From: Gemmatimonadota bacterium
GTDB taxonomy: Bacteria > GCA-2686955
DNA: 12,259 nucleotides
Assembly (NCBI GenBank): GCA_002686955.1
Contig: NYZA01000087.1
Span: 1 to 12,259 of the forward strand
Direction: 5' to 3'
Shown piece after piece: positions 1 to 12,259 of this stretch. Made by a program: the position numbers and the translations under genes. Under the pieces are notes generated by a model that was not told the DNA's origin, did not search any database, and worked only from the letters and a program-made list of their open reading frames with translations. Position 1 is the first letter of the stretch. Every line of letters starts with the position of its first letter.

Positions 1-1587
1 ATCGACGTCGTCTGCCCCGAGGGCGACCCCTGGAGGCAGGAGATCCGCAGCGAAGGGGTCTACTCGATCAGCGGCTGGTTCATGTGCAGCGGCCAGATGA
101 TGAACATGGTCTCCGAGGAGTTCCGCCACTACTTCCTCACCGCCAACCACTGCGGCATCAGCACCGGCAACGACCAGAGCGTCGTCGTCTATTGGAACTT
201 CGAATCGCCCTCCTGCGGCATGCTCTCGGGCGGTAGCCTCGCCGACAACCAGTCCGGTTCGACCTGGCGCTCCGGCAACTCCTTCTCCGACTTCACCCTC
301 ATCGAGCTCGACGATGATCCCGATCCCGCCTGGCAGGTCGCCTACTCCGGCTTCGACGCGACCGGCGACGTCCCCTCCTCCTGCGTCGCGATCCACCACC
401 CCGGAACCGACGAGAAGGCGATCAGCTTCAACGACGACGCGCTGATCAGCGAGTCCTACCTCGGCAACCTTCCGAACAACCACAGCCACTGGCAGGTGAA
501 TGACTGGGAGGTGGGAACGACCGAGCCAGGCTCCTCCGGCTCCGGGATCTGGGATCCGAACCACCGATTGATCGGGCAGCTCCACGGCGGCTACGCGTCC
601 TGCACCAGCATCACACCCGACTGGTACGGACAGTTCTCCGAGTCGTGGGACCGCGGATCTTCGGCCAGCAGCCGCATCAAGGACTGGCTCGACCCTTACA
701 ACACCGGCATTCGCACGGTCGACACCGCCGATCCCCATCCGCCCACACCGACGACCGCCCTCTCCGCCTTCGGCAGCCGCGACTACTGCGACACCGTCAC
801 CAACGGCGTCTGGGAGCCGGGTGAGCAGATCTATGTGGGCGCGCAACTCCTGGCGGTCAACGGCGACGTCACGAACATTCAGGGGCAGCTCACGGCGCTG
901 AGCGGCGGCGTGACCGTTCTCGACGGGATCGCCTCCTGGCCCGACATTCCGCAAGGGACCGAGGCGATCAGCGAGTCGCCCCACTTCCTGGTGGAGCTCG
1001 ATCAGAGCGTTACCTGCGACGCCGTGCTCGAATTCCAGCTCGACACCCAGTTCGATCAGGGAACCGCTTCGACCACCTTCTCGCAGCAGGTCGGACGCGA
1101 CGGTCCGCCGCTCGGCACCTTCGAGTCGATCGACGTGCCCAAGTCGATCCCCGACGACTACCCGGGCGGCGCCACCAGCTCGATGAACGTGGCGGCGGGC
1201 GGTACGATCGACCGCGTCTGGGTCGGGCTCGAGATCGAGCACACCTGGGTCGGCGATCTCGAGGTCGAGGTGATCAGCCCTGATGGAACGACCGTGACCC
1301 TGCTCGATCGCGCCGGCGGAACCGGCTGCAATGACGACGATATGAGGGTCGTCTTTTCCGACGCCTCGCCGCTCGACTTGAACAACCACTGCGCCGATAC
1401 GACCCCCTGGTACGAGGGCTTCGGGCACCCACTCGAGGCGCTCAGCGCACTCTCGGGCGAGTCCGCGGCGGGCACCTGGAGCCTGCGCGTGATCGACCAC
1501 GCCGGCGCCGATACCGGCTCGATCGTTCGCTGGGGCGTTCGGATCTACGATGCCGAGGGCAGGATCTGCGAGGTCTGTTCGGGGTAG
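1..1587 (+). CDS. Secreted lysyl-endopeptidase-like serine protease with C-terminal P-domain (5' end missing)
   Basis: The gene is cut by the window start; its frame is open from base 1, so the signal peptide and any propeptide lie upstream. The catalytic domain resembles Achromobacter lysyl endopeptidase (chymotrypsin fold, family S1). His is in the ANHC motif (codon 148-150), preceded by YFLT and followed by a VVVYWNFE stretch. Asp is in SDFTLIEL (289-291). Ser is in EPGSSGSG (535-537), followed by IGQLHGG. An Asp before WYG downstream might be the Lys-specificity residue, but this needs an alignment. Next comes a beta-sandwich-like linker region (about 740-1100), then a proprotein-convertase P-domain (about 1111-1545) with conserved DLEVEVISPDGT and WSLRVIDHAGADTG-type blocks. 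The protein ends in CEVCSG. Family knowledge suggests an exported, calcium-stabilised degradative protease. The fold and family are confident; Lys specificity is inference. Confidence 0.93.
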   Translation: MDVVCPEGDPWRQEIRSEGVYSISGWFMCSGQMMNMVSEEFRHYFLTANHCGISTGNDQSVVVYWNFESPSCGMLSGGSLADNQSGSTWRSGNSFSDFTLIELDDDPDPAWQVAYSGFDATGDVPSSCVAIHHPGTDEKAISFNDDALISESYLGNLPNNHSHWQVNDWEVGTTEPGSSGSGIWDPNHRLIGQLHGGYASCTSITPDWYGQFSESWDRGSSASSRIKDWLDPYNTGIRTVDTADPHPPTPTTALSAFGSRDYCDTVTNGVWEPGEQIYVGAQLLAVNGDVTNIQGQLTALSGGVTVLDGIASWPDIPQGTEAISESPHFLVELDQSVTCDAVLEFQLDTQFDQGTASTTFSQQVGRDGPPLGTFESIDVPKSIPDDYPGGATSSMNVAAGGTIDRVWVGLEIEHTWVGDLEVEVISPDGTTVTLLDRAGGTGCNDDDMRVVFSDASPLDLNNHCADTTPWYEGFGHPLEALSALSGESAAGTWSLRVIDHAGADTGSIVRWGVRIYDAEGRICEVCSG

Positions 1588-3401: not shown

Positions 3402-4757
3402 ATGAACATCTTGAAGCGCGTCTTCGGCCGAAAGAGCCCGAAGCTCTTCTTCCTCGGGCTCGACGGCACTCCCCATACACTGCTGGAGACACTAGCCGGC
3501 GAAGGGGTCATGGAGAACTACGCCCGCATCCTCGAGCAGGGCTCCTCGCGCCGGATGGAAACCACGATTCCCGATATCTCATCGGTGGCCTGGTCGACCT
3601 GGATGACCGGCACCAACCCCGCCAAGCACCAGATTTTCGGCTTCACCGATCTGAAGCCGGCATCCTACAAGACATATTTCCCTAACTTCCAGCATCTCAA
3701 GGGCTCCCCGATCTGGGCGGTGCTCGGGGCCAAAGGGAAACGTTCCGTGATCCTGAATATCCCGGGCTCGTACCCGGCTCGGCCGATGAGCGGCGCGCTG
3801 ATCTCCGGATTCGTCGCCATCGATCTCGCCAAGGCGACCTTCCCGGCCGCGCATCTTCCCTTTCTGAAGAAGATCGGCTACCGGACCGACGTCGACGCGC
3901 GCAAGGCGGCCGAGGGCTGGGATATCTTCTTCGAGGAGCTCCATGATGTGCTTCGGGCACGGCGCGAAGCGATCTTCCATCTTCTCGAAAAAGAGAGTTG
4001 GGATCTTTTCGTCGCCGCGATCACCGGCACCGATCGCCTGCAGCATTTTCTGTGGACCGCCTACAGCGATCCGGAGCACGCCCACCACCAGGATTTTCTC
4101 GACTACTACCGGGCGGTCGATCGGCTGATCGGCGAGATCGACCGAGCCATCGGCGAGGATCATCCGCTCATGGTCATGAGCGACCACGGCTTCACCGACC
4201 TTCGCCACGAGGTCTACCTGAACTGCTGGCTCGAACAGCAGGGCTATTTGAAATGGAAGGTCGCCCCCGCGGATCGCACCGATATGCAGGCGATGGCGCC
4301 CGAGAGCCGCGCATTCTGTCTCGACCCCGGCCGGATCTACCTGCATGTCAAAGGGCGTCACCCGGCGGGCTGCGTCGCGCCGGAGGACTACCGCGCCTTG
4401 CGCGACGAGATCGAAACCAAGCTCGGGGCACTGAGCGATCCCGGCAACAACGACGCGCCCGTGATCCGATCGGTCCGTCGCAAGGAAGATCTGTACGACG
4501 GTCCCTACCTACAGCAATCTCCCGATCTGGTCTGCGTGCCCCACGACGGCTACGACATGAAGGGCGCCACGCGCGAGACCGAGCTCTTCGGCAACAAACA
4601 GTTCACCGGCATGCATACGCAGCATGGTGCGCATATCTTCGTGCGCGGGCACGAGATCGAGAAAGCGACACCCCACATTTGTGATGTGATGCCGACGATG
4701 CTCCGGCTTCTCGATGTAGAGATACCGGCGAACGTCGATGGAGTGTCGCTCGTTTGA
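3402..4757 (+). CDS. AP-superfamily phosphohydrolase without export signal (paralogue 1)
   Basis: The product is 451 residues, related to type I phosphodiesterase/nucleotide pyrophosphatase and the predicted phosphohydrolases of COG3379. All expected metal and nucleophile positions are visible: Asp21 in FLGLDGTP, the putative nucleophile Ser60 in IPDISSVAWSTWMTG, Asp211 and His215 in TGTDRLQHFLW, Asp261-His262 in MSDHGF, and His405 in TGMHTQHG. The enzyme should use two divalent metals, probably zinc, to hydrolyse or transfer a phosphate ester. No signal peptide or membrane helix is present, so it is predicted cytoplasmic. It lacks the roughly 120-150-residue beta-rich insertion of its two paralogues downstream. 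I prefer the ATG at 3402, with AGGAA nine bases upstream, over an in-frame ATG at 3351 that lacks a usable ribosome site. It converges on the neighbouring membrane-protein gene with only 11 bases between stops. The substrate is unknown. Confidence 0.9.
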   Translation: MNILKRVFGRKSPKLFFLGLDGTPHTLLETLAGEGVMENYARILEQGSSRRMETTIPDISSVAWSTWMTGTNPAKHQIFGFTDLKPASYKTYFPNFQHLKGSPIWAVLGAKGKRSVILNIPGSYPARPMSGALISGFVAIDLAKATFPAAHLPFLKKIGYRTDVDARKAAEGWDIFFEELHDVLRARREAIFHLLEKESWDLFVAAITGTDRLQHFLWTAYSDPEHAHHQDFLDYYRAVDRLIGEIDRAIGEDHPLMVMSDHGFTDLRHEVYLNCWLEQQGYLKWKVAPADRTDMQAMAPESRAFCLDPGRIYLHVKGRHPAGCVAPEDYRALRDEIETKLGALSDPGNNDAPVIRSVRRKEDLYDGPYLQQSPDLVCVPHDGYDMKGATRETELFGNKQFTGMHTQHGAHIFVRGHEIEKATPHICDVMPTMLRLLDVEIPANVDGVSLV

Positions 4758-4768
4758 TCGATCTCTGC

Positions 4769-5605
4769 CTAAAGCTCCACGCCCATCTTGTTCTTCAGCG
4801 CGAAGCCGCTGATGAGCGAAACGATGCAGAAGTACCAGAGAGCGGCCGGCAGCCCGCCCCAATTCCCCACGCCGAGCACCGATTCCACGTGGGGGTATTC
4901 GACTTCGACCACGTCGAAATGAGACTCGGCATCGAAGCGCGGTCCCCCCGGATAGAGGAAATCGTCCTCGAAGTTGTTCTTGGTCATTCTGTGGTAGAGC
5001 CGCTTCGGAGCGTCCGACGCGCCGACATAGATCGGCATAGTGATCGCTTCGTCGCCGTGGGTGAGAGTGAGCTCGTGGGCCCCGCCCCGCCGGGTCTTGA
5101 TCTTGTAAACGAATTCGGTTCTTGCCACGCGGAAGGGATCTCCGGTGACCTCGAGGCCGGAGCTGGTGCTCAGTGAAGGTGCCTGAGATGCGCGGGGGGC
5201 GTCTTCACCCATCCGTACGCTCACCTCGGTGGTGGTGTTCGGAGTGAGGGGCAGCACATCCCAGCGAATGACGAACTGCGCGATCAGCAAGAGCGCGACC
5301 GGCAGCAGAAGCACTATCGATCTCCCGGCCTGCCACGTGTAGCCGCCAACCGCGCCGAAGAGCTTGCCCTGTGCCCGCAAGAGTACGGCGATGTCTTGCT
5401 GAAATAGACGCACTTCGAGAACGGCGGCACTCATGCGCCGTTTTACATCTTTGATCGCGAGCTGATTCGTCGCCAGGGCATACGCCTTGAGAAAGACGAC
5501 GCCCATGACGACCGACCACACCGTGATCCCCGTGAGGACCGACCAACCGAAGGGAAGAAAGAGCAGGTCGAAAAGGGGCGTCATCAAGTTCGCGACAAGA
5601 GCCAT
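4769..5605 (-). CDS. Three-helix membrane protein with Oxa1/EMC3-like topology and extracytoplasmic insert
   Basis: The product is 278 residues. Helix 1 spans about 20-40, followed by a basic, helical loop (about 41-95, with KDVKRRM, EVRLFQQD and LLRAQGK). Helix 2 (about 96-113) is LLLPVALLLIAQFVIRW. A beta-rich soluble segment covers about 114-250, and helix 3 (about 252-270) precedes a short tail ending MGVEL. Positive charges place the loop between helices 1 and 2 and the C-terminus in the cytoplasm, and the 114-250 domain outside. A helical cytosolic hairpin between the first two helices is the core layout of the Oxa1 superfamily (YidC, EMC3, TMCO1, DUF106), so I suggest a distant relationship; the large insert is not typical. 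I recall similar uncharacterised bacterial proteins with NQ..I..VK..... LELRLF motifs, unverified. It is the last gene of the minus-strand operon, 68 bases after the ribbon-helix-helix gene. The ribosome site is weak (GAGA). Confidence 0.85.
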   Translation of the reverse strand: MALVANLMTPLFDLLFLPFGWSVLTGITVWSVVMGVVFLKAYALATNQLAIKDVKRRMSAAVLEVRLFQQDIAVLLRAQGKLFGAVGGYTWQAGRSIVLLLPVALLLIAQFVIRWDVLPLTPNTTTEVSVRMGEDAPRASQAPSLSTSSGLEVTGDPFRVARTEFVYKIKTRRGGAHELTLTHGDEAITMPIYVGASDAPKRLYHRMTKNNFEDDFLYPGGPRFDAESHFDVVEVEYPHVESVLGVGNWGGLPAALWYFCIVSLISGFALKNKMGVEL

Positions 5606-5651
5606 GATCGATTCTCACATGTCCGAGCCACCCTTCCGGGGGCCGCTCGAT

Positions 5652-5678
5652 TCGGAGTTCTAGCGTCGGAGTTCTAGC
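5652..5678. repeat. 13-bp tandem duplication across the stop of the ribbon-helix-helix gene
   Basis: TCGGAGTTCTAGC occurs at 5652-5664 and again at 5666-5678, a period of 14. The second copy covers the TAG stop (5674-5676, minus strand) of the ribbon-helix-helix gene. It looks like a small slippage duplication. Confidence 0.8.
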
Positions 5679-5868
5679 TGATGTAGCCCAGCCCTTTGAG
5701 CTTGGCCTTGATCTCCTCGTCCGAAGCCGCATCGTCGAAGTGTGAGAGCTCGCGCTCCAGCACGTGGTGGATGAATTCGCCCACCGAAGCGTAGCCACCG
5801 ACACTCGCCGCCTTTTCGGCCTTCTCGAGCAGGTCTTTGTCGATCTTGATCTTGGTTCCACCAAACAT
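5674..5868 (-). CDS. Small ribbon-helix-helix (CopG/MetJ-fold) protein
   Basis: The product is 64 residues. TKIKIDKDLLEKAEKAASVG has the alternating beta strand and first helix of a ribbon-helix-helix DNA-binding fold, and YASVGEFIHHVLERELSHF supplies the turn and second helix, as in ParD/VapB-like antitoxins and CopG repressors. An acidic linker then leads to a distinct tail, SDEEIKAKLKGLGYIS. The start is well supported: GAGGAG at 5875-5880 lies six bases before the ATG. It sits inside an operon between the periplasmic phosphohydrolase and the membrane protein, with no toxin gene beside it. It could therefore be an autoregulator of this operon, or a dimeric structural partner using the fold without DNA. 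Fold assignment is good; role is inference. Confidence 0.85.
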   Translation of the reverse strand: MFGGTKIKIDKDLLEKAEKAASVGGYASVGEFIHHVLERELSHFDDAASDEEIKAKLKGLGYIS

Positions 5869-5884
5869 GTTCTTCTCCTCGTTG

Positions 5885-5900
5885 CGGCGGCTCGCCGCCG
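5885..5900 (-). promoter_or_regulatory. GC-only hairpin before the ribbon-helix-helix gene
   Basis: CGGCGG and CCGCCG arms (5885-5890 and 5895-5900) enclose a four-base loop, six G-C pairs in all. The hairpin ends five bases before the GAGGAG ribosome site. There is no U-run, so mRNA processing or 3'-end protection of the upstream cistron, or modulation of translation, is more likely than termination. Confidence 0.4.
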
Positions 5901-5908
5901 AATGAAAA

Positions 5909-7879
5909 CTAGAAAACCGATTCCCCGACCATATCGGAGGGCACCGCGATGCCCATCTCCGAAAGAACCGTCGGAGCGATATCGACCAGTGCGGGATCGC
6001 TCTTCTTGATTTTCTTGTTGCTCAGGATGACGCCGGGCACCAGCGTGTAGTCCACGCAGTGGTCGCCCGTCCATTTCTTGTCGTCGTTCATCGCCACGAA
6101 CGAACCGTTGACGACCTGGCCCTTGGCCGACTCGTCGGAGCCACGATAGCCCCAGCCGTACCCGACCAAGAGATCCGGAGCGTTTTCGACATGAGCACCG
6201 TGATAGATCTCCTCACGTCGGTACACCTTTTCGAAAACGCGCGCGCCGGATTCCGGATCGACGGCGGCTTCGAGCTTCTCCACCAGCTCGCTCATCAGTG
6301 CTTCTTTCGCCGCGCCCGCGCTCACGGTTCCCTTCCCTTCGCGACCGCGTTGGTTGATGTATAGGCTGTTGATGCCGATCGCGTACGCCTTGGTCTTCCA
6401 GAAATTCACCTCGGAAAGGAACTCCCCCTCTCCGTAGTTGTTCGGATCGGTGACGGCCAAGTAGCCATTCTCTTTGAGCCAGGTGTTCAGGTGCACGGAG
6501 CGGTGCCAGGGCGAGAAGCCGTGGTCGGAGATCAGGATCAGCGTACCCTCGTCGCCCACGGCATCGATCACCTTGCCGATCGCTTCGTCCGTTAGAACGT
6601 AGGTATCTCGGATCCCCGCGGCGCTCGCCGCGTCCTCCGGAAGTCGGGCCGGGTGGGTTTCGTCCATCGTTCGCCACATCATATGCGAGGTCTGGTCGAC
6701 CGAGCCGAAATAGAAGAAAGTCATCCCATTCTCTCTGGCGCGATACTCGTCCAGCACCACGTCGAGCTGCAATCGACGCTCATCGAAGACAATTCGTCGC
6801 TGCTGCAAAAACTCCTCGTTGCTGAAGATCCACCCTTCGAGAGCCTTCGTCTCTTCGGGCATGCCCTGAGTGTAGAAGCGCCCGATCTTCTCGCAGAGCT
6901 CCTCGGCGTAATCGGAGGGCGTCGTCGTAGCCCCCGCGTCCGCGCAGGGATCGAAATTCACGGGGGAGACGTAGAGACGGAAATTTGGCGAGACCTCTTG
7001 CAGGTAGAAACGGGCGATCCCCTGCATGCTCTGCATCAGCGAAAACTCGAAAGGTATGACGACCCAGTCGCTCCACTCCCCCTCGCGCAGGAGCACCCGC
7101 TCGCCTCCGACGGTGATCGCGGCGGTCTCGCTGTTGCGATCCAGAATCGCTTCGAATCGGCACGGGGTTTCGTGGCTGTCGGATCGGAAGGAATCGGGCG
7201 GCCCGAGGATCTCGGCTTCGAAGTAGTCGTCCACGATCTCTACGCGATGGATGTTGCCGGCTGAGATCTCCTTCACCGGCTTCTTCGTGTCGACGTCGGT
7301 GTAGTAGCTGAAGGTGCCGTAGGTGCCGATCACATCCGGTGTGCCCATATCGGAGATCGCGCGCCCCGTGCCGAAATCGCTGGGGGGGTAGTTCGCCGGC
7401 ATCTTGAAGATCGTCGTCTCGAATCCAGCTTGCGCGACGTAGTCCCAGAAAGGCACTCCCTTGCGGAGATTCACCGTTTCAGCGGGGGTGGAGTAGAGCG
7501 GGATCGGAAGTGTGTAGCCAAAGAGCTCGACGGTGTTCTCCGGGGGCCTGGCTTCCGATGTCGACAGAAAGGGCAGGTAACTTTCCGGGCGGCGGTGGAT
7601 GAAGTCGAAGATCCCGTGTCCGCCCGGATCGAGTCCGGTGATCACGCTGGACCAGGCCACGGGGCTCTGTGGAGGCATGGAGGTCTCGCAGGGCATGAAG
7701 CTGCCCCCATCGGCCAGCCGCTTGTAGTTCGGCAGAAGGCCCTCGTCCATATACTGCCGAAGCAGGTTCGGATCGCATCCGTCGACGCCCAGCAGAAAGA
7801 CCTTCTGCGCCGAAGCGACGCCGGGAATGGCAATGACCGAGCCGGCGAGGAGAAGAGCGAACTTTGTACCTTTACTCAC
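5909..7879 (-). CDS. Exported AP-superfamily phosphohydrolase (paralogue 2)
   Basis: The product is 656 residues from a GTG start. The first 24 residues form a clear Sec signal: basic SKGTK, hydrophobic FALLLAGSVIAIPGV, and an ASA cleavage site before Gln25. The mature enzyme begins almost at the catalytic core. Ligands are Asp33 (LLGVDGCDP), putative nucleophile Ser72 (PPQSPVAWSSVITG), Asp395 and His399 (GSVDQTSHMMW), Asp452-His453 (SDHGF), and His607 (TGDHCVDY). A beta-rich insertion (roughly nt 7265-6930) contains EGEWSDWV, matched by the KYSDWV region of paralogue 3. Several cysteines suit an oxidising periplasm. An in-frame ATG at 7954 would overlap the upstream stop by eight bases but add 25 residues ahead of a good signal peptide, so I prefer GTG 7879; a GGGAAAGGG lies 11-12 bases upstream. 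Second gene of the minus-strand operon, 67 bases after paralogue 3. The substrate is unknown. Confidence 0.9.
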   Translation of the reverse strand: MSKGTKFALLLAGSVIAIPGVASAQKVFLLGVDGCDPNLLRQYMDEGLLPNYKRLADGGSFMPCETSMPPQSPVAWSSVITGLDPGGHGIFDFIHRRPESYLPFLSTSEARPPENTVELFGYTLPIPLYSTPAETVNLRKGVPFWDYVAQAGFETTIFKMPANYPPSDFGTGRAISDMGTPDVIGTYGTFSYYTDVDTKKPVKEISAGNIHRVEIVDDYFEAEILGPPDSFRSDSHETPCRFEAILDRNSETAAITVGGERVLLREGEWSDWVVIPFEFSLMQSMQGIARFYLQEVSPNFRLYVSPVNFDPCADAGATTTPSDYAEELCEKIGRFYTQGMPEETKALEGWIFSNEEFLQQRRIVFDERRLQLDVVLDEYRARENGMTFFYFGSVDQTSHMMWRTMDETHPARLPEDAASAAGIRDTYVLTDEAIGKVIDAVGDEGTLILISDHGFSPWHRSVHLNTWLKENGYLAVTDPNNYGEGEFLSEVNFWKTKAYAIGINSLYINQRGREGKGTVSAGAAKEALMSELVEKLEAAVDPESGARVFEKVYRREEIYHGAHVENAPDLLVGYGWGYRGSDESAKGQVVNGSFVAMNDDKKWTGDHCVDYTLVPGVILSNKKIKKSDPALVDIAPTVLSEMGIAVPSDMVGESVF

Positions 7880-7946
7880 GATGCTGCTACCCTTTCCCGG
7901 GCGGCGGACTGGAACCGTCTCCGCCCCGCTCCGGTTCAGTTTGTAA

Positions 7947-10112
7947 CTACACATTTGCGGTTCGAGAGTCGATCGGTTTGCCGCTCGGGAGCAGCGTAGG
8001 ATCGATTCGAGTCGGCCCCAGGAGGGAGAGCCCCTCCATCTGCGGCGTCTTCGCGACACCGAAAAGCTCCAGCACCGTTGGGGCCAGATCGATGATGCGT
8101 GGGTTCTCGCAGTCGAGCTTGCGCGTGCTGTAGAGCACACCGGGCACCAGGCGCGGATCGATGCAGTGATCGCCGCTCCAGGCCTTCGTGTTGTCCACCA
8201 GAGCCTCTTCGAGGATCTTGCCGGTCACCGATTCCCACGACACGCGGTACCCCTTGTTGTAGCCGATCAGCACATCGGGGGCGTTCTCCACGAAGGGGCC
8301 GGGACCGTAGCAATCGTCCCGATCCCACGCATCGACCACGACCTGTTCGTTGTCGTATTCGGGATCCCTGAGCTCTCGCAGCTTCTCGATGATCTCGGCC
8401 TTGAGAGCCTTCGCCTCTTCGCCCGGCTCGACGATCCCTTTCGATTCGCGTCCTTTGATATTCAGAAAGAGACCGGCCAGCCCGAGCCCGAAGGCGCGCG
8501 TCTTCTCCCAATCGACGTCGACGAACCAGTCGCGCCCCTCGGTCTTCCCCTCGCGCAGAACGAGATAACCCTGATCTCTCAGCCAGCTGTTGACGTTGAG
8601 GCCCCGATGGAAGCTCTTGAAACCGTGATCGGAGAGCACGAAAAGCTCTTCGTCCTCCTTGCGCCGATCGAGCACCTCACCCACCAGCTTGTCGGCCCGC
8701 TCGTAGATGTCGCGGATGGCGTGTTGGTACTTCTCCACATCGAACCCGCGGGCGGCGGGATGGCCGTCCTGGATGAAACGGTAGAACATGTGCTGAATGC
8801 GGTCGGTCGCATCGAAAACGCAAACGACCAACCCCTTGCGAACCTTGTCCAACTCCGACCAGAACATCTTCTCCCGCTCCTCGTGGATCAGGTAGGTCTG
8901 CTCCAGGAACTGGTCCTCGTTGATGACACGTTCGTTCAGCGCCCAGGTGTCCTCGGCCAGGCCCAGCGTCGCGAACGATCCGAGCGCCTTCGAGAGGTAG
9001 ATCGAATAGACCAACGGGTGCGAGATCGGCAGCGCGGGGTTCTCCGGATCGATGTTGATCGGAGTCATATAGAGGTTGAAGGTCGGCTCGATCGAAGTGA
9101 TCAGAAGACGCGCGATGCCGTGGACCTTCTGCCCCAGTCCGGCGCTGTAGCTGAGCCGAACCCAATCGGAGTACTTCCCCCTTTCGAGGTGGATCGTGTC
9201 ACCCGTACCCAGCTCGACCACGGCGCTCTGTCGCGCCGAATCGACCTTGATCGTGAAGGGGATCTCGAGCTGAGGGCTCCCCTCGACCAGCGAGTTCGCC
9301 GGGCCGGGAATCGCCCCTTTGATGACGTCCCCTTCGCGGGTGATCTTGATCCGCTCGCCACCGGTGGTCGCGGAGTCCTCGGGATTCGTGCTGAACGAGG
9401 TGAAGCTGCCCTGCGTGCCCTTGAGATCGGGCGCGCACATCGCGGCGAGCTGCACGCCGTCGAACTCCTCGGCCGGAAAGGTGATCGGCACCCGCAGGAT
9501 CGCCGAGAAGACGCCGTGCTCGCCGAGTTGCTTCCAGAACGACTTCCCTTTGCGCAAGAGCTTGATACCGGGCTTCTCGAGGGGGAAGCGATACTTGCCG
9601 AGCTTGAGCACCTTCTTGGGTGAAGTGATCTGCGCCGAAGAAAGATCGGGTAGGTAGGTGCGGCGGTCCCGGGCCAGGAAATCGAAGATGTTGTGCTTGG
9701 CAGGGCTGCAGCCGGTGATGAAGGAGGACCAGGCCACGGGCGAGATCGAGGGGAAGGTCGTTGACAGCTTCGAAGAGAATCCCTGTTCGCCCAGACGCTT
9801 GAAGTTCGACATTCTGCCTTCGGCAACGTATTTCCGGACAAGATCGGGATCGAGCCCATCGAAACCCATGACGATGACGCGACGGACCATCGCGGCTCCC
9901 GTCCCTTTCCGGCGGCGCTTGAGCGCGACCCAGGCCATCCGGATCGGGAAGAAGAGGATCGTCGCCAGCGCCAGAAGAACCGCGCCCAGGAAGAAAAAGA
10001 GGGAACCGGCAAACGCAAACCCGGCACCGGGACCGACATAGGCAGTCGCGGGCAGGGGAATGACAAGACCGAGAAGAGCCGCGATCGACGCGGCGCGAGC
10101 AATTCGTTTCAA
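7947..10112 (-). CDS. Membrane-anchored AP-superfamily phosphohydrolase with YVGPGAG module (paralogue 3)
   Basis: The product is 721 residues from a TTG start, supported by GAGAGG seven bases upstream and by the N-terminus it gives. Residues 1-24 look like a signal peptide ending ATA. They are followed by YVGPGAG (25-31), a membrane helix (about 33-56) and a very basic segment (PIRMAWVALKRRRK). By the positive-inside rule the catalytic domain that follows is cytoplasmic. Catalytic positions are Asp85 (VMGFDGLDP), Ser124 (FPSISPVAWSSFITG), Asp437 and His441 (ATDRIQHMFY), Asp495-His496 (LSDHGF) and His649 (SGDHCID). A beta-rich insertion (roughly nt 9362-9018) is shared with paralogue 2 and absent from paralogue 1. 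First gene of the minus-strand operon; a promoter-like sequence lies about 150 bases upstream. The two-metal phosphohydrolase/transferase chemistry is inferred from the family; the substrate is unknown. Confidence 0.9.
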   Translation of the reverse strand: MKRIARAASIAALLGLVIPLPATAYVGPGAGFAFAGSLFFFLGAVLLALATILFFPIRMAWVALKRRRKGTGAAMVRRVIVMGFDGLDPDLVRKYVAEGRMSNFKRLGEQGFSSKLSTTFPSISPVAWSSFITGCSPAKHNIFDFLARDRRTYLPDLSSAQITSPKKVLKLGKYRFPLEKPGIKLLRKGKSFWKQLGEHGVFSAILRVPITFPAEEFDGVQLAAMCAPDLKGTQGSFTSFSTNPEDSATTGGERIKITREGDVIKGAIPGPANSLVEGSPQLEIPFTIKVDSARQSAVVELGTGDTIHLERGKYSDWVRLSYSAGLGQKVHGIARLLITSIEPTFNLYMTPINIDPENPALPISHPLVYSIYLSKALGSFATLGLAEDTWALNERVINEDQFLEQTYLIHEEREKMFWSELDKVRKGLVVCVFDATDRIQHMFYRFIQDGHPAARGFDVEKYQHAIRDIYERADKLVGEVLDRRKEDEELFVLSDHGFKSFHRGLNVNSWLRDQGYLVLREGKTEGRDWFVDVDWEKTRAFGLGLAGLFLNIKGRESKGIVEPGEEAKALKAEIIEKLRELRDPEYDNEQVVVDAWDRDDCYGPGPFVENAPDVLIGYNKGYRVSWESVTGKILEEALVDNTKAWSGDHCIDPRLVPGVLYSTRKLDCENPRIIDLAPTVLELFGVAKTPQMEGLSLLGPTRIDPTLLPSGKPIDSRTANV

Positions 10113-10783: not shown

Positions 10784-12259
10784 ATGAATTGTGCATCGAA
10801 GTGGTTCGCCACAAGCGTTTTCGGCCTGATTCTTGCCCCCCCTCAACCTCGCGCTAGCGGCGGTCGTTCCGACCTTGCCGCCGCGTGACGGCGATGCCGA
10901 CTATACGATCGCGGAGCGGATTCTCGGTCCGATCCTGACGAATATCACCGGGGTGTGTGAGGGGGAGGAGGCCGCGCTAGAGCGGATCGTGCAGGCGACG
11001 GATGAGACCGGGTGCGGCTGGGTTCGCCACGCCAACGGCAAGATGGGGTGGTTCGATCTGAGCACCATGCCGGATGCTGATGGAGAGTTCGAGCTCCGGT
11101 TCTCGAAACTGATTTGGCAAAGCGCAGAGGGTTGCGACTCGCCCGTCACCGGTCATTTCGACTGGTGGGCGCGCCAGTACGGCAAAACCGACCCCCCGAA
11201 TCAGTTCATGAGCCAGATCGGGCGATTCGACATCTACGGACCCTCGGCGGCGGAGTGGGACGAAGATTCGCCGGACGATGAAAGGAACGAATGGACCGGC
11301 GACTACTTCACGCACGAGGGTGTTTTCGCGTACGACGTCAACGATGGGTGGACAATCGGGCTGGATCCAAATATGAGAATAATCGATCTTTGGCCGGAGT
11401 GGGTCGCGAAGACCTTCTGCACCTACGACGTCAGCAGATATGGCGATGGTTGTCCCGGGATCGACGAGCCGGATCTTCTCGACGCCTATTTCGAGAAGTG
11501 GATGATCTTCAACGAGCCCTTCACGCGCGGGCTCTTCCCCTGGAACATCATCGAGCTCTTCCGGCTGGCCAAGGCGAAGACGATCGAGCTGCAAGGCTCG
11601 GGCCCCCGTTCACCCGTGTACATCGGCGGGGTGAACGGAGTCAAGCATCCTCCCAGAGTGGACGGTGGCATCGAGCGCCGAGACAACCCGATGACCCCCC
11701 TCGAACGCCATTGGGCTCTGATGTGCTACGGGGGCGGGCAGGCAGGCGAGGAATACCAGAACGACGCGATCGCCGCACACTTCCAGGTCGTCCTCGGCCC
11801 CGAGACCCGCTTTCTCTCCGACCCGGGAGAGTTCAGTCGAGACGACTACTCCGGCGCTTTCGATGCCAGCGCGTCGCTTTTCTCGCTCGGGCGTTTCTGG
11901 GGCATCGATCCCGTGAGGGTCATGCTGGACGAGACGACGATCAAGGCTGTGGACGGCCCCTTCCACCCGGTCTCGAATCCCCCCGAGGCTCAGGCGAACT
12001 ACCTCGAACGAACCCTGCTCCTGGCGCTTTCGACCGGCTACGTAGATGGGCTCCACATGGCGTGGGAGGACCACTGCGAGTACGATGACGAAGATATCAT
12101 AGCGTCCGACACACCCGGTTGTGCCCGTCACCGTGCGGCCGGGATTAAGAAGCCGGGCTTCTTCGGCGCGGCATTGATTCATCGAATGCTGGGCGACGCG
12201 AACAATCCGAACGCTCTCTCGTACGAGAGCTCATTGCCGATCGAGCACCCGACCGACCC
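10784..12259 (+). CDS. Putative secreted clan GH-A glycoside hydrolase, frame broken at a C run, 3' end beyond window
   Basis: From ATG 10784 the frame starts with a good signal peptide (MNCASKWFATSVFGLILA) but hits TGA at 10886-10888. The frame one base further on is open from 10830 to the window end, with about 470 residues of normal composition. Removing one C from the seven at 10836-10842 joins them as LILAPLNLALA, then AVVPT: a complete signal peptide with an ALA cleavage site. With that correction the protein has EKWMIFNEP (Asn243-Glu244-Pro245, codons 11511-11519), the acid/base motif of TIM-barrel clan GH-A enzymes. It also has VMLDET (Glu383 at 11931-11933), a plausible nucleophile on strand 7, then EAQANYLERTLLLA and YVDGLHMAWED, the layout expected around strands 7-8. 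The GH family and polysaccharide substrate are not recognised. It may be a sequencing error, a phase-variable gene or a pseudogene. Confidence 0.7.
10836..10842 (+). repeat. Seven-C homopolymer that breaks the reading frame
   Basis: G followed by seven C then T, within the hydrophobic core of the predicted signal peptide. Six (or nine) C would make the glycosidase-like gene continuous. Homopolymers of this kind are sites of replication slippage and of sequencing or assembly errors. Confidence 0.9.

Follow-up and report, generated by a model that had tools for sequence, protein, structure and literature searches.

A conserved gene module of NPP-type alkaline phosphatase-superfamily proteins, a ribbon-helix-helix-like protein and a bacterial DUF106/EMC3 relative

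Several described systems resemble parts of the locus reported here. In the Oxa1 superfamily of membrane proteins, archaeal DUF106 (MJ0480), EMC3 and TMCO1 share a first transmembrane segment (TM1), a cytosolic helical hairpin, TM2 and a later TM3, and DUF106 is known as an archaeal family whose three transmembrane segments are related to TM1, TM2 and TM5 of Oxa1 (PMC8887752). In the NPP branch of the alkaline phosphatase (AP) superfamily (Xac NPP, the ENPPs and PhnA), proteins of family PF01663 combine a complete set of metal ligands with a hydroxyl nucleophile. Sulfate activation to phosphoadenosine phosphosulfate (PAPS) by ATP sulfurylase (Sat) and adenosine phosphosulfate (APS) kinase (CysC) is found together with sulfotransferases and sulfatases. 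In PutA-type regulators, a ribbon-helix-helix (RHH) domain is joined to a metabolic enzyme. Here we analyse a complete contig of 12,259 bp from a Gemmatimonadota bacterium (NYZA01000087.1, hereafter the window; source genome 4.28 Mb, 84.5% complete), which encodes three AP-superfamily paralogues (APcyt, APsig and APtm), an RHH-like protein (RHH) and an Oxa1-superfamily membrane protein (MEM).

The locus departs from each of these systems. Unlike archaeal DUF106 and EMC3, MEM is bacterial, is tied to AP enzymes and has an Ig-like domain, predicted to be exported, between TM2 and TM3. Unlike the NPP branch, the locus keeps three to four ancient AP paralogues together, each with a fixed predicted location. 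Genes for PAPS formation, sulfotransfer and sulfatases adjoin the module in many relatives, but it is unlinked to them in the window's genome; the APS kinase associated with it in relatives ends in a tail with a Leu-Gly-Tyr motif (the LGY tail), and NPP-like APs stand in place of an obvious glycan cluster. As in PutA, an RHH protein would be coupled to an enzyme, but here RHH is a separate protein of 64 aa with a C-terminal tail. Taken singly, the parts are new subfamilies within known superfamilies. An earlier reading of the window made from its letters and open reading frames (ORFs), referred to here as the sequence-only reading, knew of no described system of such composition; we likewise found no description of this composition, of the tail strings or of a bacterial DUF106 in the open-access literature searched, a result that subscription literature and preprints could change.

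Our comparison of 241 sampled genomes, in which the window's genome (G000) has one close relative, makes it virtually certain that APtm-APsig-RHH-MEM exists as a unit. RHH and MEM occur in the identical 24 of 241 genomes (Fisher p about 1e-33, with related genomes counted though they are not independent; one weak, partial MEM match in genome G050 was set aside from this count). A scan of species genomes with RHH gave at least 510 confirmed relatives, with Acidobacteriota, Gemmatimonadota, Planctomycetota, Omnitrophota and other phyla among those listed. In 96 of the 97 loci with both genes, RHH lies immediately before MEM and on its strand, and the complete APtm-APsig-RHH-MEM series is present in 69, the exceptions being mostly cut by contig ends. 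APtm-RHH-MEM without the intervening APsig is found in seven of these 97 loci, and in genome G229 RHH and MEM sit on separate contigs. Gene order persists in many phyla, and on this comparative basis APtm-APsig-RHH-MEM is a conserved unit of ancient origin. It is present in roughly one in ten genomes of a broad sample and probably does a basic job that so far has no name.

The three window APs are PF01663/NPP-type members of the AP superfamily by profile, ligand and tree evidence, and phosphodiesterase activity is predicted for them. All three pass PF01663, with 146 bits for APcyt, 125 for APsig and 110 for APtm against a Pfam cut-off of 23, and all retain the metal ligands and nucleophile (D, S, D, H, D, H, H) at 7/7 positions, as the sequence-only reading had claimed; these residues are practically invariant among relatives (15 APcyt, 21 APsig and 22 APtm). 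Identity over the catalytic parts is 26-32% for APcyt paired with APsig or APtm, while APsig and APtm share 35% identity across 641 aa (E 8e-135) and a large insert that is missing from APcyt. A quick-method tree of 82 AP proteins places APcyt, APsig, APtm and a fourth paralogue described below (APx) in one clade each across phyla (SH-aLRT 98, 100, 97 and 100, respectively), with APsig and APtm as sister clades. By profile comparison, the nearest relatives of known structure are phosphonoacetate hydrolase and the NPP phosphodiesterases, and a Foldseek search with a related, tailed AP, which is not a window protein, likewise returned NPPs as the nearest folds. The formylglycine sulfatase motif C/S-x-P-x-R is absent from the window APs, whose nucleophile context is S-[SP]-V-A-W-S, and the top score of window proteins against the sulfatase family PF00884 was 13.6 bits, under the cut-off of 25. 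About 50 ORFs of the window's genome belong to the AP superfamily (PF01663), and many of these have hydrophobic N-termini as well as LGY tails.

The APs differ in their N-termini, from which cytoplasmic, exported and membrane-anchored locations are predicted for APcyt, APsig and APtm, respectively. APcyt begins straight at the catalytic domain, and APsig starts with a Sec signal (...GVASA|QK). A simple sequence pattern marks 36 of 66 APsig orthologues as lipoproteins, and others have Tat-like or Sec-like signals, with 19 of the 66 left unclassified by this regular expression, many of them with wrong or cut starts. In some Eisenbacteria-like loci, an LGY motif stands near the APsig N-terminus, directly after the lipoprotein cysteine (L081:7714-9867, L089:853-3015, L099:81-2219 and L105:7854-9980, where L numbers are our locus handles and G numbers our genome handles). 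APtm starts with a signal-like segment, a motif, one transmembrane segment and a basic stop (...PATA|YVGPGAG, the segment, KRRRKG). The Y[IV]GPGAG motif is present in 56 of 64 called APtm orthologues, the remainder being mostly 5'-truncated, and 54 orthologues have an AxA-like site before it, with a median net charge of +5 past the transmembrane segment. The APtm catalytic domain is predicted to lie inside because the basic stretch after the transmembrane segment follows the positive-inside rule. The three predicted locations, first proposed in the sequence-only reading, are conserved among orthologues.

Our analysis indicates that MEM, a bacterial protein, is related to archaeal DUF106/EMC3 within the Oxa1 superfamily, with a putative insertase role. 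A profile of 53 MEM sequences matches MJ0480 (PDB 5c8j) over TM1-hairpin-TM2 (E=4.8e-8), and when these relatives were searched singly, 18 of 53 matched EMC3_TMCO1 (PF01956; best 3.8e-7). The AlphaFold2 (AF2) model (pLDDT 88) contains TM1 at residues 23-45, a helical hairpin at 48-67/72-115 that includes TM2, an Ig-like domain at about 119-245 that is predicted to be periplasmic, and TM3 at 254-274; with topology inferred from this model, MEM shows the Oxa1-type architecture of TM1, cytosolic helical hairpin, TM2 and TM3. These three lines of evidence bear out the Oxa1-like assignment made from the window alone. The window MEM itself has no Pfam match, and the curated PF01956 cut-off is passed in 0 of the 241 genomes. 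Foldseek and VIA searches with the model matched the Ig-like domain alone and no Oxa1 entry; since the Ig domain fills the list, the unmatched membrane part excludes nothing. The Ig-like part resembles filamin repeats (Z about 6.5), an arrangement that is common. MEM would extend the DUF106/EMC3 branch, described as archaeal and eukaryotic, into bacteria and link it to specific enzymes.

RHH appears to be ribbon-helix-helix-like, with putative DNA binding. The sequence-only reading had called this fold from the window protein, for which the call remains weak: it has no Pfam match above cut-off and matches an RHH family profile at E=0.12. Across the family the call is consistent, with RHH_1 matched in 20 of 44 relatives (best 1.8e-4) and PSK_trans_fac in 26 of 44 at E<=1.

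In relatives, a second run of genes, RHH2-Sat-APx-CysC-APcyt, ends with APcyt, and the families of its enzymes are PF01747 for Sat, PF01583 for CysC and PF01663 for APx. This run is joined to the core in loci L029, L030, L088, L106, L140, L147 and L153, some with single genes missing, and stands apart from it in genome G188. Gene order in relatives places APcyt in a second, separable sub-cluster, which changes the sequence-only reading on this point; APtm and APsig belong to the core. Among neighbouring genes called by a codon-usage gene caller, a Sulfotransfer_3-like gene of about 170-200 aa is present in 29 loci, mostly divergent upstream of APtm (for example L058:5135-5653, minus strand), and further neighbours in relatives include sulfatase genes and PAPS-reductase/CysD-CysN-type genes. 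In G229, CysD-CysN separates MEM from APcyt, and that genome gave no match to APS kinase. These neighbouring genes suggest a link to sulfate activation by way of PAPS.

The LGY tail is probably a C-terminal docking tag, a helix ending L-x-x-L-G-Y-I. In RHH it has the form [DE]E-x-I-x-x-x-L-x-x-L-G-Y-I-S, and the strict L-x-x-L-G-Y-[ILVM] ends 78 of 82 called RHH copies, the others being one-letter variants. The same tail, which was absent from the observations of the sequence-only reading, occurs on RHH2, on module-type CysC, on most neighbouring sulfatases and on several neighbouring APs, and in G229 it is carried by CysD; RHH, RHH2, CysC and CysD have no AP fold. At L151:8858-9658 (minus strand), an LGY-tailed CysD-type protein (PAPS reductase/ATP sulfurylase small subunit) lies between MEM and CysN-APcyt. 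Scanning the window's genome with a DNA pattern of the tail yielded 22 matches, against 1 for the reversed control; of these 22, one is RHH and 21 are AP/sulfatase-superfamily-like ORFs, a few of which are cut by contig ends and were judged from their C-terminal part. At least ten tail matches were found in 11 of 24 genomes with MEM and in 2 of 217 without it (p about 6e-11, from counts made by hand and without phylogeny correction). A hidden Markov model search identified tailed CysC in four MEM-less genomes (G002, G078, G103 and G220), and nearly so in G058. In these four, CysC lies in a Sat-APx-CysC-APcyt neighbourhood, with tailed APs beside it in three and a tailed sulfatase in two, so the tail system is wider than the core. 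In the MEM-less loci L212, L213 and L214, LGY-tailed APs come after the tailed CysC, and L212 and L213 also have an LGY-tailed sulfatase of about 1075 aa.

It is possible, though we would put it somewhat short of an even chance, that these genes encode a dedicated envelope enzyme module. In such a mechanism, APtm (inside and tethered) and APsig (outside) would act on both faces of the inner membrane, and their substrate could be a sulfonucleotide (APS, PAPS or their products) or a single class of envelope compound with sulfate or phosphodiester linkages. MEM, as an EMC3/DUF106-type protein with an exported Ig-like domain, would insert or scaffold the AP enzymes, the LGY tail would serve as a docking tag gathering the sulfate-activating enzyme, the regulator and the AP enzymes, and RHH, presumably dimeric, would couple enzyme or substrate state to operon expression. 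The broader proposal, that MEM and the LGY tag organise a sulfate-activating enzyme, RHH regulators and APs into one membrane-spanning system making or remodelling sulfate or phosphodiester envelope compounds in many uncultured phyla, we regard as doubtful. The tail on otherwise unrelated proteins offers a concrete, testable hypothesis for coupling sulfate activation to AP-superfamily enzymes.

Several results weigh against this reading. The window's genome has its Sat and CysC genes at other sites, its CysC lacks the tail, and a search for an APx orthologue found none; without Sat/CysC linkage there, the sulfate link is inferred from relatives. Some APx members have lost metal ligands or the nucleophile. 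AF2 models the tail of a tailed AP as a helix with a pLDDT of about 80 that comes after a loose linker. MEM as the sole receptor of the LGY tail was rejected, as tailed CysC and LGY-rich genomes also occur without MEM. On separate points, the window CysC was considered as a tailed form and rejected on its tail-less C-terminus, and APx, as seen in L030:13187-14566, L029:14599-15975 and relatives, may be a pseudoenzyme.

The sequence-only reading had assigned the module a phosphate ester or phospholipid head group as substrate. We found no direct evidence for this, and the neighbours in relatives point instead to sulfate activation together with sulfotransfer and sulfatase genes. A module in which the APs cleave or transfer lipid or glycan phosphoesters on both faces, with the sulfate cluster incidental, would nonetheless accord with nearest solved relatives that are phosphodiesterases, including ENPP6/7, which act on phosphocholine lipids, with intact metal ligands and Ser nucleophile, and with a core that lacks adjoining Sat/CysC in the window and many relatives. 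Such a module would leave aside that APcyt, an ancient member, lies within the Sat-CysC cluster in many phyla and that CysC, CysD and RHH have the tail in common, and we judge it rather unlikely. Ordinary scavenging, with RHH a plain repressor, the APs periplasmic and cytoplasmic nutrient-recovery phosphodiesterases, MEM a general accessory insertase and the tail an inherited structural cap, seems unlikely: the roughly 50 AP-superfamily ORFs of the window's genome and the placement of most of its LGY tails on AP/sulfatase enzymes would suit it, but the tail also ends four kinds of protein without the AP fold, and RHH and MEM co-occur strictly in distant phyla.

The tail itself might instead mark proteins for degradation or modification, as when its Tyr is sulfated by the neighbouring sulfotransferase-like protein, rather than act as a docking helix. 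The invariant Tyr in an acidic context and the 29 loci with a Sulfotransfer_3-like gene, mostly divergent upstream, speak for such a role; conservation of Leu, Gly and Tyr together suits a structural dock better, and the tail occurs on cytoplasmic and exported proteins alike and also where no sulfotransferase-like neighbour was found, which makes a tag of this kind improbable. RHH proteins are frequent in toxin-antitoxin pairs, and PglZ of BREX belongs to the AP superfamily, which would allow an anti-phage defence or toxin-antitoxin module of RHH antitoxin and AP-superfamily effector. This background is all that favours such a module and no result here supports it: PADLOC matched none of the five proteins (E<=1e-3), a tblastn search with MEM found no plasmid copy, which also speaks against plasmid-borne spread, and gene order is conserved over many phyla rather than in patchy islands. 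We consider a defence role highly improbable. The dedicated envelope module stays our working proposal. Its claim that AP enzymes face both the cytoplasm and the periplasm at the inner membrane, already made in the sequence-only reading, is supported, with the locations predicted from sequence. Because the four minus-strand genes adjoin in relatives of many phyla and each AP copy groups with its own orthologues, neither objection foreseen in that reading, a lack of adjacency in related genomes or a grouping of the copies with unrelated families, holds.

In the window, all five genes that the sequence-only reading had placed there are present at the positions it gave (Table 1). The minus-strand run APtm-APsig-RHH-MEM has intergenic gaps of 67, 40 and 68 bp, short enough to make an operon plausible. 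APcyt is on the opposite strand and convergent with MEM, with stop codons 11 bp apart, and is therefore a neighbour here and not an operon member. Promoter and terminator signals in a scan of the window were not above those of shuffles, and an NCBIfam search of the window proteins gave no informative names.

Table 1. Coordinates of the module genes and of the RHH tail in the window
Feature	Position	Strand	Description
APcyt	3402..4757	+	451 aa, no signal peptide, no LGY tail; type I phosphodiesterase/NPP-like AP superfamily, predicted cytoplasmic
MEM	4769..5605	-	278 aa; Oxa1-superfamily (EMC3/DUF106-like) membrane protein
RHH	5674..5868	-	64 aa; ribbon-helix-helix-like, C-terminal LGY tail ...SDEEIKAKLKGLGYIS
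APsig	5909..7879	-	656 aa, GTG start, Sec signal; NPP-like AP-superfamily protein, predicted exported
APtm	7947..10112	-	721 aa, TTG start; NPP-like AP-superfamily protein, predicted membrane-anchored
LGY tail of RHH	5674..5721	-	last ~15 codons

Other genes flank the module. At 1-1587 (plus strand), a secreted-type protease truncated by the contig start combines a trypsin-like domain, under cut-off, with a proprotein-convertase P domain (PF01483). It is followed on the 5' side of the module by a MoaB-like gene (1662-2255), a SixA-like histidine phosphatase gene (about 2300-2758) and a YciB/IspA septation protein gene (2749 to about 3321, minus strand), and a protein similar to the last lies beside APcyt in genome G001 (L028). 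At the other end, an open ORF of 475 aa (10833-12257, plus strand) has no Pfam or NCBIfam match and contains ...WMIFNEP..., which recalls the acid/base motif of glycoside hydrolase clan A.

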